From Flavobacterium lipolyticum (GTDB taxonomy: Bacteria; Bacteroidota; Bacteroidia; Flavobacteriales; Flavobacteriaceae), in the NCBI RefSeq assembly GCF_020905335.1, contig NZ_JAJJMN010000001.1, positions 806,001 to 870,000 on the forward strand: a DNA stretch of 64,000 nt. Direction: 5' to 3'. The stretch's first letter is position 1, and every line of letters begins with the position of its first letter. The notes below the pieces were generated by a model that ran no database searches, was not told where the DNA came from, and saw only the letters and a program-made list of their open reading frames with translations. This document shows, one piece after another, positions 803 to 24,698 of this stretch. The translations under genes were made by a program, and so were the position numbers.

Positions 803-1678
803 ATGAAAAAATTAATGCTAAGCTTGTTTATAGCTTTTGGATTCAGTGCCTGCTCCCTTAATAATGAAGATATGAATGTAGTTTGCGGAGAAAGTGAAGA
901 CTTAGCTTTTACAGGAATTCCACTTTTATGCAACTATAGTGTTAAATCTTTACCTACCAATCCTGTTGCATTTTTAGCTGCTTCCGAAGAAAGATTGAAT
1001 GCTTACTTCTCTAAAAAAGAGAATACGTGTCCAAACGCTACCGTTACACCTATCGATTTTACAAAAGAAATGATTGTTGGTATTTTCTCAGGACTTAAAC
1101 CTACAAGCGGTTTTAAAATTAAAATAACCAGCATTGTTCAAAACAAATGTCAGATTTTGGTCAATTACTACGAAAAAGAACCTGAAGTGGGTGAGACAGT
1201 TGCTCCTGGGGCAACGTATCCGTCAGATTTCATTTTGATACCAAAAACAACTAAAACAATACTATTCAATAAAGTAGCAGACAACCGTGACAATGTCGTA
1301 ATAGGAAGTTTCAGCGGTCAATGTACAGGTGCCGATTGTCAAAAATTCTATCAGATCAATGATTTTAATATCCAAAAATTCTTAAACGTTAAAGCCGGTG
1401 CTTACGATTTCGATCAATATCGCTATACGGCGGCTACTAAAAAAGGAGATTACACGCTATTCTTAAAATCGGTACCTGCTGAGATTTTAGCTTTAAAAGG
1501 AAAAACGAAAACATATGGTTCTCCGGACGCTGCAGATCAGGGAGGGGTATATTTTGAATTACGTCAGGGCATAATGGTCACTAAAATTACGATCGACAAC
1601 AAAGATACTGCCGATCAAAGTACCGAGATAAAGGCATTTAAAAAGGCTATTCAGGAAAAAATAACAAGTCTAAAATAA
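803..1678 (+). CDS. Lipoprotein with PrcB-like domain
   Basis: This is a 291-residue exported protein. It has a lipoprotein signal (MKKLMLSLFIAFGFSAC, Cys at about 17), so it is probably attached to the periplasmic or outer membrane. Residues about 85-155 (FTKEMIVGIFSGLKPTSGF, then a Val/Tyr strand, a Gly/Pro loop and a closing strand ending in IPK) resemble the PrcB C-terminal domain, a small protein-protein interaction fold. The region from about 185 to the end is not recognised. The next gene starts 8 bases after the stop, so the two are probably co-transcribed. Function unknown. Confidence 0.7.
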   Translation: MKKLMLSLFIAFGFSACSLNNEDMNVVCGESEDLAFTGIPLLCNYSVKSLPTNPVAFLAASEERLNAYFSKKENTCPNATVTPIDFTKEMIVGIFSGLKPTSGFKIKITSIVQNKCQILVNYYEKEPEVGETVAPGATYPSDFILIPKTTKTILFNKVADNRDNVVIGSFSGQCTGADCQKFYQINDFNIQKFLNVKAGAYDFDQYRYTAATKKGDYTLFLKSVPAEILALKGKTKTYGSPDAADQGGVYFELRQGIMVTKITIDNKDTADQSTEIKAFKKAIQEKITSLK

Positions 1679-1686
1679 TCTGATTT

Positions 1687-2085
1687 ATGAAAAAATGTTT
1701 CTTATTTATCATTGTATGCGGTCTCTTTTCGTCGGCATATTCAGTGGAATCTACGGGTATGAATTCGGGTTCGATTGTAAACACCTGGATTTGGGAAAAA
1801 TCGATTGGAGGGAGCAGTAACCCTTATACGGCAACTCCTAAAACAATCGGATTTAACAAAAAAGTCATTTTTACACCAAACGGAAGAGTAATCACATACA
1901 AAAACAATGTTGAAATAAGAAATAGCACCTATACAATTGAAAAAGGTATTGGTTACTTTGATCAGGCCGAACATGACTTAATCACTTTTGAAGGCAAGAC
2001 TTATATCATAGAAAACCTTGACAATCAAAACCTAACCATTGTCAGCAATAATACCGATGCATCACGTACTATTTACAAAAGGTAG
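1687..2085 (+). CDS. Small exported protein, lipocalin-like
   Basis: The 132-residue product has a clear signal peptide (about residues 1-19, ending SSAYS). The mature part is a run of short beta strands with a GxW-like start (NTWIWEKS) and a TFTPNG-style turn (VIFTPNGRVITYKNN). This pattern is common in Flavobacteriia lipocalin-like proteins. It follows the PrcB-like lipoprotein by 8 bases. No catalytic motif is visible and the assignment rests on strand pattern alone. Confidence 0.6.
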   Translation: MKKCFLFIIVCGLFSSAYSVESTGMNSGSIVNTWIWEKSIGGSSNPYTATPKTIGFNKKVIFTPNGRVITYKNNVEIRNSTYTIEKGIGYFDQAEHDLITFEGKTYIIENLDNQNLTIVSNNTDASRTIYKR

Positions 2086-2105
2086 TTTTATAAGCTTATA
2101 AGAAC

Positions 2106-2113
2106 TATTTTTG
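2106..2113 (+). promoter_or_regulatory. Promoter -7 element upstream of ECF sigma gene
   Basis: TATTTTTG matches the Bacteroidota -7 consensus TAnnTTTG. It ends 22 bases before the TTG start at 2136, so the leader would be very short. A convincing -33 TTTG was not found, only a T-run near 2086. Confidence 0.45.
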
Positions 2114-2135
2114 CAAAACCAAACAAACCACTTTT

Positions 2136-2687
2136 TTGAAAGACGATTTAGAAAAATACATACGACTGTGCATCAAAAATGACAGAGAAGGACAACTGAA
2201 AATCTATCAGTTGTTCTCTCCTGTTTTATATGGTATATGCCTGAAGTATATGAGAAATGAAGACGATGCCAAAGATGTATTTCAGGAGGCTTTTGTCATC
2301 GTTTTTCAGAAAATCGGCCAATATAAATTTGAAGGAAGTTTTGAAGGCTGGCTTAAACGTATTTTCATTAATAAGCTGATTGAAACTCTGAACAAGAAGA
2401 AAAAAGAGAGTTTCTTTTTGGACGTTTTTGATCCGGATACTGATTTTGTCGAGGAGGAGGAATTGGATATTGCTCCGGTCGAACAGGAGAAACTGCTGGA
2501 ATACATTCGGGACCTACCGGATCAGTACCGCACCGTTTTCAACCTGTATGTTTTTGAAAAACTAAAGCATAAGGAAATTGCCGAACTTTTAAAAATCTCT
2601 GAAGGAACATCAAAATCAAATCTAAATCGGGCCAAAAGCATTTTGCAAAAAAAAATAATGAGCATAAAAAATTTTAAAATAGCATGA
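2136..2687 (+). CDS. ECF-type RNA polymerase sigma factor
   Basis: The protein is 183 residues, normal for an ECF sigma factor. Region 2 covers about residues 20-90 (NEDDAKDVFQEAF at 41-53). Region 4 covers about 120-172, with a helix-turn-helix (HKEIAELLKISEGTSKSNL) and the usual NRAK ending. The start is TTG at 2136. An in-frame stop lies at 2091 and there is no ATG before region 2, so a non-ATG start is forced. The stop overlaps the start of the next gene by 4 bases (ATGA), a standard sigma/anti-sigma pairing. Target genes are not identifiable from this window. Confidence 0.92.
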   Translation: MKDDLEKYIRLCIKNDREGQLKIYQLFSPVLYGICLKYMRNEDDAKDVFQEAFVIVFQKIGQYKFEGSFEGWLKRIFINKLIETLNKKKKESFFLDVFDPDTDFVEEEELDIAPVEQEKLLEYIRDLPDQYRTVFNLYVFEKLKHKEIAELLKISEGTSKSNLNRAKSILQKKIMSIKNFKIA

Positions 2688-4480
2688 AAAAGCAAAATAT
2701 AGAAGATCTTTTTTCATCAATGGAAAACTTTTCAAGTGTTCCTCCTCCTGAATTATGGAGCCAGATTGAAGAAAAATTGGACCAGCCAAAAAAGAAGAAG
2801 AAGAAAGCTATTCTTTGGTGGTCGGCTGCTGCATGCTTATTATTGGGCTTGATGCTTCCTTCTGTTTTACATTTTACTTCTACTTCGGCAATTCAAACGG
2901 TAAAAAATGGCGCGATAGAAAACAATAGTGTGGTTCTTGATGAGAAAAAAAACAATCCAAGCTCTAACCAAACAATTCAAAGTAAAGAAAACAATACTGT
3001 TGTAAGTACCACTCAGCAAGAATCAAATGATACCGTTAGTAATTCTTCTCTGAAGAACAGTACGAATTCGTCTGAGCTTTCTATAAAAAAACACAATCAA
3101 AAAACGGCAGTTGCTCATTCTGATGTAACGAATAAGGCTAATTCAGGGAATGCGAATCTGAACTCCACTCTTCAAAAGAGAAATGAAGATCATACTGCAA
3201 CCCAAAAAGTAATTGTTTCTGCAAAAACAAATACAGCCCTTTCAAATCCATCAAATGCATTCAATTCTGCTTCAACAAATCAATTTTTAAATCCAGAGCG
3301 AAAGAGTTCCAATCAAAATGTAGCTGAGAAAGTATATACTATCAACAAAAACAATGGATTGGGTTCTTATTCAAAAAATTATCCTATTAGTGCTGATAAA
3401 AAAGCTGCTAATCAAATAGTAGCGGAACAAACTTTTAATGCAGGAAAGGGAAACCCTTTCCATCCAAATTCAAAAAATAAGGTGTCGGGTTCTGTTTTCG
3501 AAGAGCAATTGCCTGCTAAAAATAGCATTAGTACAGCTTTAAGTGTTGTGAACCCGCTGTCTGACAAACATCAAAAAACTGCTATTGAAAACGCATTCCC
3601 AGGCAGAGAATTAACAGGTAATTCAAAAAACAGTTCGAAATTCAGTACCGTTTTAAGCAAGCAGGATTCCATTCAGTTGGCAGAACTTCAAAACTTAGAA
3701 AAAGGCATTATTAATCCGGAGGAGAAAAACGAGAAAGAAAAGAAAACGACCATTTCTAAAGGAGAAAGATGGGCCGTTGAAGTTTTTGCCGGATTAGCCA
3801 ACTCGGAGAATTATAAAAATGACAAAACGCTGGGCAATGTAAACGACTCTAAACAGGGAAGTACTTACGGTGTTAAAACAAAATATAAAATCAACAAAAA
3901 ATGGGCCGTTGGTTCAGGTTTTAAGATCAACGAATTAGGACAAAGTGTTGCCGATGTTTCGTACATAAGCAATGGTCCGCCTAATGCTGGCATGACTTCT
4001 AATGACTATTTTAATCAAAATGCAACAGTAGTCGCAGCAGCTCCTCAAATTAGCACTAGTTCAGGTTACATTTTTGTTTCTAAAAACACTACAAATGCGT
4101 TAAAACAAAATAACATTGAAAGCAATTCTATTGAAAGTGGGAATCTGGATCAAAACTTAAGATACATCGAAATGCCTTTAGAGGTTTCGTATTCTGTTTT
4201 CAGTAAAAACAGGACCAACATCAATATCAATACCGGTGGTTTTGTGGGAAAACTGATTTCAAATAACATGGCCTTAAACGGAAATTCGATCGGTCAGAAT
4301 GTCAATGCCAATGATTTCATCTACGGTTCTACATTAAGTAGTACTTTGCAATATCGCGTTTACAAGAAAACAAGTGTTTTTGTGGAGCCTGCTATGAATT
4401 ATTACGTTAATCCGTTAAACAGCCAATCGTTTAATCAGTTTCAATGGGGATTAAATTTTGGATTGAATGTTACTTTTTAA
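2684..4480 (+). CDS. Putative dual-membrane-spanning anti-sigma factor
   Basis: The 598-residue protein has three parts. A cytosolic N-terminus (1-42) carries the PPPELWSQIEEKLD motif typical of short Bacteroidota anti-sigma domains. One transmembrane helix follows at about 43-64. Then come some 290 residues rich in Asn, Ser, Thr and Lys, long enough to cross the periplasm. From about 361 to the end there is an outer-membrane beta-barrel-like domain (ERWAVEVFAGLA, YIEMPLEVSYSVF, terminal LNVTF with C-terminal Phe). The gene overlaps the ECF sigma gene by 4 bases. This order matches what I recall of the Dma (dual membrane-spanning anti-sigma) family from Bacteroides. The topology here is inferred. 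Confidence 0.75.
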   Translation: MKKQNIEDLFSSMENFSSVPPPELWSQIEEKLDQPKKKKKKAILWWSAAACLLLGLMLPSVLHFTSTSAIQTVKNGAIENNSVVLDEKKNNPSSNQTIQSKENNTVVSTTQQESNDTVSNSSLKNSTNSSELSIKKHNQKTAVAHSDVTNKANSGNANLNSTLQKRNEDHTATQKVIVSAKTNTALSNPSNAFNSASTNQFLNPERKSSNQNVAEKVYTINKNNGLGSYSKNYPISADKKAANQIVAEQTFNAGKGNPFHPNSKNKVSGSVFEEQLPAKNSISTALSVVNPLSDKHQKTAIENAFPGRELTGNSKNSSKFSTVLSKQDSIQLAELQNLEKGIINPEEKNEKEKKTTISKGERWAVEVFAGLANSENYKNDKTLGNVNDSKQGSTYGVKTKYKINKKWAVGSGFKINELGQSVADVSYISNGPPNAGMTSNDYFNQNATVVAAAPQISTSSGYIFVSKNTTNALKQNNIESNSIESGNLDQNLRYIEMPLEVSYSVFSKNRTNININTGGFVGKLISNNMALNGNSIGQNVNANDFIYGSTLSSTLQYRVYKKTSVFVEPAMNYYVNPLNSQSFNQFQWGLNFGLNVTF

Positions 4481-4531
4481 AGTTCTTTTTGTGGTAGTTT
4501 TACCCAAAAATTACTTAGAAAAAACGATAAA

Positions 4532-5053
4532 ATGATCCTCAAAAACAATTGGACTGATCCGGAGTCACTCCCTAAAGATCTTAGAATTGCCAAAGAAATA
4601 CTTTACGATTGTTGCGATTTTGAACTCACTCAACCTCAACCGGAAGCTGAAAGCAATGAGTACGATGCTTACCGTTTTCGATTGAATCAGAAAAACATCT
4701 GTTACAGGAAAGCGAAAATCACGCCCACCAAAACAGGTCAGTTTGTAACTTTATGGAAACGCAATACGACGGGAATTATTGAGCCATTTGATTTCACAGA
4801 CGCTATTGACTTTGTGATCGTCAGTGTTCGAAATAACGAACTCTTTGGACAATTTGTCTTTCCTAAATCTGTTTTATTAGAGAAAGGTATTTTTACCACT
4901 TCGACCAAAGAAGGTAAAAGAGCCACGAGAGTATATCCTCCCTGGGATGAAACAACAAGTAAACAAGCGCAGAAAACGCAACAATGGCAATTGAATTACT
5001 TTTACTCCATTACGCCCGAAACAAATCTGAAACCATTCAAAACCTTGTTCTAA
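4532..5053 (+). CDS. MepB family protein
   Basis: The 173-residue protein shows the MepB family signatures in order: YDAYRFRLNQKNICYRKAKI, TPTKTGQFVTLWKRN, GQFVFPKSVL, EGKRATRVYPPWD and a final QWQLNYFY. The name comes from a gene in the Staphylococcus aureus mepRAB locus whose biochemical role is undetermined. It is predicted to be cytosolic, with no signal peptide. It stands alone on the plus strand, 51 bases after the anti-sigma gene, and ends at a bidirectional terminator. Confidence 0.88.
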   Translation: MILKNNWTDPESLPKDLRIAKEILYDCCDFELTQPQPEAESNEYDAYRFRLNQKNICYRKAKITPTKTGQFVTLWKRNTTGIIEPFDFTDAIDFVIVSVRNNELFGQFVFPKSVLLEKGIFTTSTKEGKRATRVYPPWDETTSKQAQKTQQWQLNYFYSITPETNLKPFKTLF

Positions 5054-23708: not shown

Positions 23709-23743
23709 TCACTATATAAGCTAACGAATAACCAACCAATTTT

Positions 23744-24253
23744 ATGAATCAGAATGTGTTTATAGAATTAATAAATCCTTTTAAAGACAAAGTTTTTCGT
23801 CTGGCAAAAAGATTGTTAACCAGCACCGAAGAGGCTGAAGATGCCACTCAGGAAGTTATGGTAAAGTTATGGAACAAAAAAGACACTCTGGATTCTTACA
23901 ATAGTGTTGAAGCTGTTGCAATGACAATGACCAAGAATTATTGTCTGGATCAGTTGAAATCGAAAAGGGCCGGGAATCTCAAAATCGTTCACAACAATTA
24001 TACGGACCGGGAACCTCAACTGGACAAGAAACTGGAGGATTCGAATAGTTTAGAATGGGTTGAAAAAATTATAAGCCAATTACCCGAACAATTACAAATA
24101 TTAATTCAATTGCGGGATGTAGAACAATATGAATTTGACGAGATTGCAAAAATTGTCAATATGAATGAAACGGCTATACGCGTAGCCCTTTCAAGAGCGA
24201 GAAAAAAAATAAGAGAATCAATGGTTAATACACACAGTTATGGAATTCAATAA
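23744..24253 (+). CDS. ECF-type RNA polymerase sigma factor
   Basis: The 169-residue sigma factor has region 2 at about 10-75 (TSTEEAEDATQEVMVKLW) and region 4 at about 105-160 (YEFDEIAKIVNMNETAIRVALSRARKKI). An ATG start at 23744 follows an ECF-like promoter. The stop overlaps the next gene by 14 bases. The downstream genes encode a short membrane anti-sigma candidate and two DUF4252 proteins, an arrangement that recurs in Flavobacteriia. It probably controls its own operon. Confidence 0.93.
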   Translation: MNQNVFIELINPFKDKVFRLAKRLLTSTEEAEDATQEVMVKLWNKKDTLDSYNSVEAVAMTMTKNYCLDQLKSKRAGNLKIVHNNYTDREPQLDKKLEDSNSLEWVEKIISQLPEQLQILIQLRDVEQYEFDEIAKIVNMNETAIRVALSRARKKIRESMVNTHSYGIQ

Positions 24254-24698
24254 AATAGAAAATATACTAGAAAAATACTTTCAGGGAGAAACCACGATTG
24301 CCGAAGAAAATCAATTAAAAGAATATTTTTCTTCACCGGATGTTGCGCAGCATTTGGAGCAATACAAACCAATGTTTGGTTATTTCTCTCAGGTAAAAGA
24401 ACAGAAATCGACGCAGACGATCCCACTAAAAACTAAAAAACGAAATGTGGCGTGGTTATCGATTGCAGCTTCAGCTGTTGTTTTGCTGGGAATTGGAACC
24501 TATTTCTATACGAGCGAAAAAAATGCAACTCCGGTTACAGCTCAAACAGAATTGGGAACCTATGATGATCCGGAAGAAGCACTTGCCGCAACGCAAAAAG
24601 CTTTGGCCTTATTATCAAACAATGTTAATGTAGGTATTGAAAGTGTACAATACATTAAAGAATACGAACAATCAAAAAACAAAATTTTTAAACAGTAA
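24240..24698 (+). CDS. Putative anti-sigma factor, single-pass membrane protein
   Basis: The 152-residue protein has a cytosolic N-terminus (IENILEKYFQGETTIAEENQLKEYF reads as a typical Bacteroidota anti-sigma helix pair), one transmembrane helix at about 70-86 and a short periplasmic tail (87-152). The 14-base overlap with the sigma gene and the topology support the role. No zinc-binding anti-sigma motif (HxxxCxxC) is present, so it is not a ZAS-type protein. Confidence 0.75.
   Translation: MEFNKIENILEKYFQGETTIAEENQLKEYFSSPDVAQHLEQYKPMFGYFSQVKEQKSTQTIPLKTKKRNVAWLSIAASAVVLLGIGTYFYTSEKNATPVTAQTELGTYDDPEEALAATQKALALLSNNVNVGIESVQYIKEYEQSKNKIFKQ

Follow-up and report, generated by a model that had tools for sequence, protein, structure and literature searches.

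The window analysed here is a 64,000-nucleotide stretch of Flavobacterium lipolyticum (contig NZ_JAJJMN010000001.1, positions 806,001 to 870,000 of the forward strand), near the start of which the gene of an extracytoplasmic function (ECF) sigma factor overlaps that of a 598-residue anti-sigma protein. As judged by profile comparison, the latter is a Dma-type (dual membrane-spanning) protein, both of its ends matching Bacteroides-type Dma proteins, and the gene pair is very probably a Dma-type trans-envelope stress switch. The kind itself is already known; added here are its predicted promoter, a lipoprotein-rich candidate regulon, a small-RNA candidate and variants with a sorting domain.

Anatomy of the Anti-sigma Protein

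The gene pair and the predicted parts of the anti-sigma protein are as follows.

2136-2687, + strand: ECF sigma factor, 183 residues, TTG start; PF04542 and PF08281 over cut-off (Pfam)
2684-4480, + strand: anti-sigma gene, 598 residues; shares 4 bases (ATGA) with the end of the sigma gene
2684-2800, + strand: predicted cytosolic anti-sigma segment, residues 1-39; helices 4-11 and 22-32, low confidence
2801-2866, + strand: predicted inner-membrane helix, residues 40-61, from hydropathy; AlphaFold2 (AF2) helix 40-56; Lys/Arg-rich before it
2870-3634, + strand: disordered tether, residues 63-317; structureless, predicted local distance difference test (pLDDT) score below 50 (AF2)
3656-3703, + strand: conserved helix ahead of the barrel, residues 325-340; in both AF2 models, low confidence
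3770-4477, + strand: predicted 8-stranded outer-membrane barrel, residues 363-598; AF2 model m70a4b6890f90, VIA-align and Foldseek matches

The order of parts proposed in the first-pass annotation, a cytosolic segment, one inner-membrane helix, a low-complexity stretch and a barrel-like end closing on Phe, is upheld by hydropathy, composition and the AF2 models. The single hydrophobic helix (about residues 40-61) carries 7 Lys or Arg within residues 30-42 on its N-terminal side. From residue 61 to 325 no structure is predicted, with pLDDT mostly 25-35, and the disordered stretch totals about 255-300 residues; the tether (residues 63-317) is 16% Asn and 15% Ser. Among 55 homologues the tether varies from 195 to 410 residues, as against 61-62 for the N-terminal end and 271-282 for the C-terminal end, and its pairwise identity is 43%, with means of 91% for residues 1-62 and 86% for residues 318-342. 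The closest protein, from Flavobacterium tructae, is 95% identical to that of the window. A stop-interrupted orthologue (L025, genome G066) is possibly broken or misassembled, and a close homologue recorded under Pseudomonas shirazensis (P0093) is probably a mislabelled or contaminated record.

The check proposed for the C-terminal domain, a structure prediction looking for a closed barrel, gives a closed 8-stranded barrel (AF2 model m70a4b6890f90) that matches outer-membrane barrels by VIA-align and Foldseek. Residues 361-596 match OMP_b-brl_2 at E 1.9e-4, and the final eight residues are NFGLNVTF, ending in Phe. Two points weigh against this assignment: the OMP_b-brl_2 match scores 22 bits, under the Pfam cut-off of 27, and the full-length AF2 model is poor (pLDDT 44.7, predicted template modelling score 0.33). 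The domain might be a soluble periplasmic barrel of the lipocalin or YceI kind that never enters the outer membrane, a reading to which the low Pfam score leaves some room and which, with the model matching outer-membrane barrels, we consider very improbable. A sequence search for solved relatives returned one match only (E 0.0044), which lies on the tether region and was taken as low-complexity.

Relationship to the Dma Proteins of Bacteroides

The Dma1/Das1 and Dma2/Das2 pairs of Bacteroides thetaiotaomicron were reportedly described by Pardue et al. in 2024. The same pairs are treated by Pardue et al. 2026 (PMC13088901), in which Dma proteins are described as combining an anti-sigma domain with a helix, a disordered tether and, at the C terminus, a barrel, beside an ECF21 sigma. 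That paper also groups dma2 with das2 and the DUF4943 gene BT_1557, has dma2 loss acting via das2, and describes Dma3 as a sigma-barrel fusion. Because dma2 lies beside BT_1557, DUF4943 (PF16301) was used to locate Bacteroides-type Dma proteins; it has matches in 7 of 247 class-level genomes, 6 of them over cut-off, and in two genomes of one genus (G346 and G354) the DUF4943 gene stands 3' of a sigma gene and a gene for a 351-356-residue Dma-like protein. Since several homologues of the latter bear Bacteroides names in the source databases, the set was treated as Bacteroides-type Dma, being thus defined by synteny with the dma2 operon and database names, not by comparison with the named BT loci. 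The same family adds five Dma-like proteins of 409-439 residues, and at two loci of Bacteroides-family genomes (L169 and L171) a sigma, a membrane segment and a barrel-like end are found in one open reading frame (ORF), of 553 and 574 residues, matching the description of Dma3.

Profile-to-profile comparison with the Bacteroides-type set gave a probability of 97.8 (E 9.6e-13) for profile A1 of class A, the window type, and of 99.1 (E 1e-18) for profile A2. The N-terminal 62 residues alone matched the Bacteroides-type N terminus (probability 96.8, E 2.7e-10) and the barrel alone the Bacteroides-type barrel (probability 98.6, E 9.2e-16, score 105.2), which bears out the likeness to Dma noted in the first-pass annotation. 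General barrel likeness was rejected as the cause of this match, as 12 PF13568-type proteins of the same genome, run as single sequences and hence not like for like with the profile-to-profile score of 105.2, reached 16.7-40.9 against the Flavobacteriaceae barrel profile and 14.8-49.7 against the Bacteroides barrel profile. Five of seven single Bacteroides-type sequences score above the control range against the Flavobacteriaceae profile (53.0-95.2). The other two (34.5 and 26.3) lie inside it, which tells against the kinship, and the homology therefore rests mainly on the profiles.

The window protein resembles Dma1 and Dma2 in its anti-sigma segment, helix, long disordered tether, C-terminal barrel and adjacent ECF sigma; it differs in size (598 versus 351-439 residues for the Bacteroides-type proteins here), and its operon differs from that of Dma2 in having genes for a PrcB_C lipoprotein and a 132-residue protein in front, not a DUF4943 gene behind. 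A protein search of its own genome gave one match at E 0.001. Two 409-411-residue barrel proteins of that genome (L012 and L013) were rejected as Dma proteins for their signal-like N termini, and a profile match at C1:696255 was rejected as a paralogue, being a 321-residue anti-sigma without the full span.

Spread across Bacteroidota

The class A profile matches 75 of 121 Flavobacterium genomes at E 0.001, and these divide by E-value into 37 of class A and 38 others. The fetched matches outside class A are mostly of class B ('MSEKKNIDRLFQ...GLYSGISF.F'), likewise sigma-coupled; at least three genomes (G085, G022 and G018) were matched only via anti-sigmas of other sizes. In a phylum-wide sample a mixed profile matches 52 of 247 genomes, including 24 of the 27 within Flavobacteriaceae, which supports the wider use of the design suggested in the annotation. 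A sigma adjoins the match in all 23 further Flavobacteriaceae loci retrieved (L063-L085), and outside this family many matches are limited to the N terminus. Eighteen of 20 further regions, which were picked for long open frames and are not random samples (three are in Flavobacteriaceae), have a long anti-sigma after a matching sigma. Taken as sequence matches, these data indicate that the Dma design is widespread in Bacteroidota.

Grouping of the Sigma Factor

The adjacent ECF sigma that accompanies Dma proteins is present, its likeness to Dma-linked sigmas being drawn from a tree and not from an ECF21 model. This tree (76 rows, rooted for drawing only, in which three of the Bacteroides-family sigmas are not Dma-linked) places the window sigma within a Flavobacteriaceae Dma-linked clade (support 97/90), which is nested in a group of 55 rows (99/98). 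The Dma-linked sigmas of the Bacteroides family, 10 in number, all lie in this larger group and form one group among themselves (96/90). Outside the 55-row group fall 17 of the 20 other sigma rows from the same genome. The group is not a Dma-only clade, because sigmas with short anti-sigmas also lie inside it. In five Bacteroides-family genomes the sigma profile has the Dma-linked sigmas as its 10 best matches (two of them fused and one a partial form), and the next three fetched are not Dma-linked.

Short anti-sigmas beside same-group sigmas of the window's own genome (L125, 321 residues; L115, 245 residues) would suit a different fate for the chain, in which it is cut soon after export, leaving an isolated barrel in the outer membrane and making the N-terminal piece an ordinary inner-membrane anti-sigma that receives no signal through a single chain. 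The low-complexity, fast-evolving tether, at 43% pairwise identity, also fits a dispensable linker. We nevertheless think such a cut unlikely, because class A, class B and Bacteroides-type proteins all retain the fusion of anti-sigma and barrel-like parts, the segment ahead of the barrel is 86% identical pairwise, and the tether has at least 195 residues in all 55 class A homologues (Bacteroides-type proteins, at 351-439 residues in total, have a shorter one).

In five Bacteroidia genes that adjoin sigmas of the window sigma's group (L142:855-1973, L143:1114-2061, L148:831-1736, L151:1317-2450 and L152:1505-2452), a type IX secretion type B sorting domain (TIGR04131) replaces the barrel. The domain is over cut-off in four and short of it in the fifth (34.7 against 35 bits); inspection by eye shows an anti-sigma-like N-terminal segment and helix in four of the proteins, that of L143 being cut at an inner start. 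These genes occupy two places in the best sigma tree, of which the supported branches force only one origin. L150 resembles them, by appearance only. At two Flavobacterium loci (L060 and L061) the sigma genes are followed by proteins of 861 and 982 residues with the same type of N-terminal anti-sigma segment and a different C terminus; going by their predicted sequences, these are another large anti-sigma type.

Start Sites of the Gene Pair

The TTG start of the sigma gene and its 4-base overlap with the 598-residue protein gene (2136-2687 against 2684-4480), both reported in the first-pass annotation, were surveyed in 30 loci including this one, of which 28 were parsed by script (L039 and L042 were missed). 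Both features are kept in 28 of 28 parsed loci, and given this conservation chance is excluded. The overlap is not universal among wider relatives, as the anti-sigma start lies 34 bases past the sigma stop at L042 (second script) and the spacing is 63 bases at L074. Position 2106, given at first as the start of the feature, proved not to be a gene start; the sigma gene begins at 2136, and what lies at 2106 is a short box.

2106-2113, + strand: TATTTTTG, a TAnnTTTG-type box fitting the primary-sigma -7 box

TAnnTTTG is given as the flavobacterial primary-sigma box in the accessible part of PMC9723704, and of 28 upstream regions aligned, 26 contain TATTTTTG (L027 and L038 are without it). The box is likely to be an internal promoter of the sigma gene. 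Elsewhere in the window, a second ECF-like sigma frame (L120; about 23732-24253, + strand, 173 residues) overlaps a gene for a 152-residue protein with one hydrophobic stretch (about 24240-24698, + strand), a candidate for an ordinary small anti-sigma.

A Putative Operon and Its Likely Promoter

The pair is flanked by three genes on the same strand and by an upstream promoter motif.

747-775, + strand: ECF-type promoter motif, ACGCAACC-ATTT-N11-CATCTA; kept upstream of the orthologous lipoprotein gene
803-1678, + strand: PrcB_C lipoprotein gene, first of the putative operon; PF14343 at E 2.1e-8, over cut-off; lipobox FSAC
1687-2085, + strand: 132-residue predicted exported protein; N-terminal signal-like sequence, no family over cut-off
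4532-5053, + strand: MepB-like gene, possibly last of the operon; PF08877 at E 2.7e-52

The intergenic gaps across 803-5053 are 8, 50, -4 and 51 bases and suggest a single putative operon. Homologues of the flanking genes are found in class A loci, 15 of 37 for the lipoprotein (many loci end before its place), 28 of 37 for the 132-residue protein upstream of the sigma (some are cut short) and 31 of 37 for the MepB-like protein downstream, and in 0 of 29 class B loci for each. A likeness to NigD of the lipoproteins encoded first in class B was rejected, as six that were scanned gave no match to Pfam NigD.

The promoter sequence ACGCAACCATTTCCAAAAGAAGACATCTA at 747-775 ends 27 bases 5' of the ATG of the lipoprotein gene. 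Among 16 orthologous upstream stretches a strict regular expression matches 9, and in 6 others an identical -35 box with ATCTA was recognised by eye; the site of the sixteenth genome lies just outside the fetched stretch (G079:C13:36761). The exact pattern has one site in the window's own genome, ahead of this operon. Across the 121 genomes ACGCAACCNTTN(10-14)ATCTA has 139 sites in 65 genomes, versus 10 for the reversed pattern. Motif and anti-sigma occur together in 59 genomes, anti-sigma only in 16, motif only in 6 and neither in 40 (Fisher 1.2e-12, uncorrected for relatedness and genome size). In 48 of the 59 the motif lies 1,009-2,511 bases upstream of the anti-sigma match on the same strand, one site per genome, where about 0.06 are expected from a rough genome size; the 48 comprise 28 of the 37 class A genomes and 20 of the 38 others.

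Against the assignment of this promoter to the window sigma stand the 16 of 75 anti-sigma-positive genomes that lack the motif and the 6 of 46 match-free genomes that have it, and related genomes are not independent. This partial mismatch (59/16/6/40) would suit a promoter read by another ECF sigma, which would leave the lipoprotein and small-RNA genes described below outside the regulon, and ECF regulons can overlap, as in F. psychrophilum, for which the accessible text of PMC9723704 also describes an ECF motif with a CGT box ahead of another sigma/anti-sigma pair. Set against that reading, the sole exact site in the window's own genome heads this operon, despite 22 sigma region 4 matches over cut-off in that genome, and motif and anti-sigma are co-located in 48 genomes (28 of 37 and 20 of 38, as above). 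We regard another sigma as a real, if lesser, possibility, and control by the window sigma as the likelier.

Candidate Regulon

Of the 139 sites, 51 distinct ones were inspected, namely those in returned loci and those in 20 regions picked away from the anti-sigma. An ORF starts within 80 bases of 36 of these, and 30 of the 36 ORFs open with a lipobox, against a rough background of 25 in 232 ORFs; the other 15 sites have no ORF start within 80 bases. Half of the 30 lipobox sites precede small lipoproteins elsewhere than the sigma operon. Weighing against the regulon, the other 15 all head the first gene of the sigma operon in one genome or another, and near-matches (at most 3 mismatches) are not enriched in the window's own genome (12, versus 17 for the reversed control), for which reason an own-genome regulon drawn from a relaxed motif was rejected.

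Paired -35 boxes 166-185 bases apart were seen at 16 of 26 loci, eight of which were chosen because a pair was expected. In the window's own genome the pair lies just downstream of recA (L196, G000:C1, sites 1859407 and 1859577), each site differing by two bases from the strict motif; the other pairs are spread over 15 further genomes. The first paired site is followed by about 110 bases and a terminator hairpin of 13 predicted pairs, 4 of which have changed on both sides; for the remainder of this candidate RNA no consensus structure was obtained, and the recA-side transcript had no match at the Rfam gathering score in 10 loci. In 16 of 16 cases the second paired site precedes a basic 34-residue ORF, which has matches in 27 of the 121 genomes, 26 of them among the 37 of class A; the remaining match (G117) is weak and falls inside that genome's own anti-sigma tether. 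Equating the small RNA with Rfp18 of F. psychrophilum, or reading the THC0290_1774/1773 pair of that species as a Dma pair, was set aside, the sequences not having been compared. As their promoter sequences suggest, the lipoprotein genes seem to be under the control of this sigma, and the candidate small RNA possibly is too.

Proposed Mechanism

The best reading, and one that we hold to be very likely, is an envelope-stress system with its sensor end in the outer membrane, whose topology and signal we infer. The barrel, with a C-terminal strand ending in Phe, would be inserted in the outer membrane via the usual barrel-assembly route, and with the predicted barrel there a single chain would link the outer membrane to the cytosol. 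With the barrel properly in place, the sigma would be held by the cytosolic helices; after outer-membrane damage, or if the barrel fails to be seated or is altered by a ligand, a cut to the chain in the periplasm or within the membrane would free the sigma. The trigger may be failed barrel seating, a ligand or a pull on the tether, and to release by proteolysis we give an even chance. Freed sigma would read ACGCAACC...ATCTA promoters ahead of its own operon and of genes for small lipoproteins, as well as, for most genomes of class A, those of the candidate small RNA and the 34-residue protein, and the internal TAnnTTTG box and TTG start may provide a low basal supply of sigma.

E. coli RseA senses unassembled barrels through DegS. 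The window pair is like sigma-E/RseA in being an envelope-stress ECF system whose predicted regulon includes exported proteins and a small-RNA candidate; it differs in that the Flavobacterium anti-sigma itself carries the barrel, and no sequence relation is claimed. The EcfO/Reo pair of Bacteroides fragilis was reportedly described by Ndamukong in 2013. In work on Phocaeicola (PMC9308784, PMC13114119), that pair is called similar to M0N98_03761/03760 of P. vulgatus. In the latter a sigma gene precedes that of a large anti-sigma, which is predicted to cross the periplasm and to have a barrel in the outer membrane, and an envelope-targeting toxin induces the pair. When Phocaeicola loses the anti-sigma the sigma is set free, and attack on the envelope switches the system on (PMC9308784). 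Both pairs are likened to that of the window by their published descriptions.

Significance

Within the literature seen, work on signalling from the outer membrane to transcription through one protein in Bacteroidota concerns gut Bacteroides and Phocaeicola. A search by title and abstract start found no study of Flavobacterium Dma or sorting-domain anti-sigmas in the literature covered, subscription papers being mostly outside its scope. We propose tentatively, with confidence slightly short of even, that tethered trans-envelope anti-sigmas may be a general modular sensor of Bacteroidota, in which one sigma group is served by a barrel or a type IX type B sorting end, and that the Flavobacterium barrel version may command a sigma-E-like programme of lipoproteins, a dedicated small RNA with a conserved terminator at its end and a 34-residue protein. 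In F. johnsoniae, TamL loss raises outer-membrane lipoproteins and vesicle release (PMC12045153); part of this effect could be due to the regulon proposed here. With a conserved version in Flavobacterium, for which a promoter and a lipoprotein regulon are predicted and a small RNA is a candidate, the sensing step can be tested directly in bacteria from outside the gut; there is also a hint here of an equivalent of the sigma-E response throughout the phylum.
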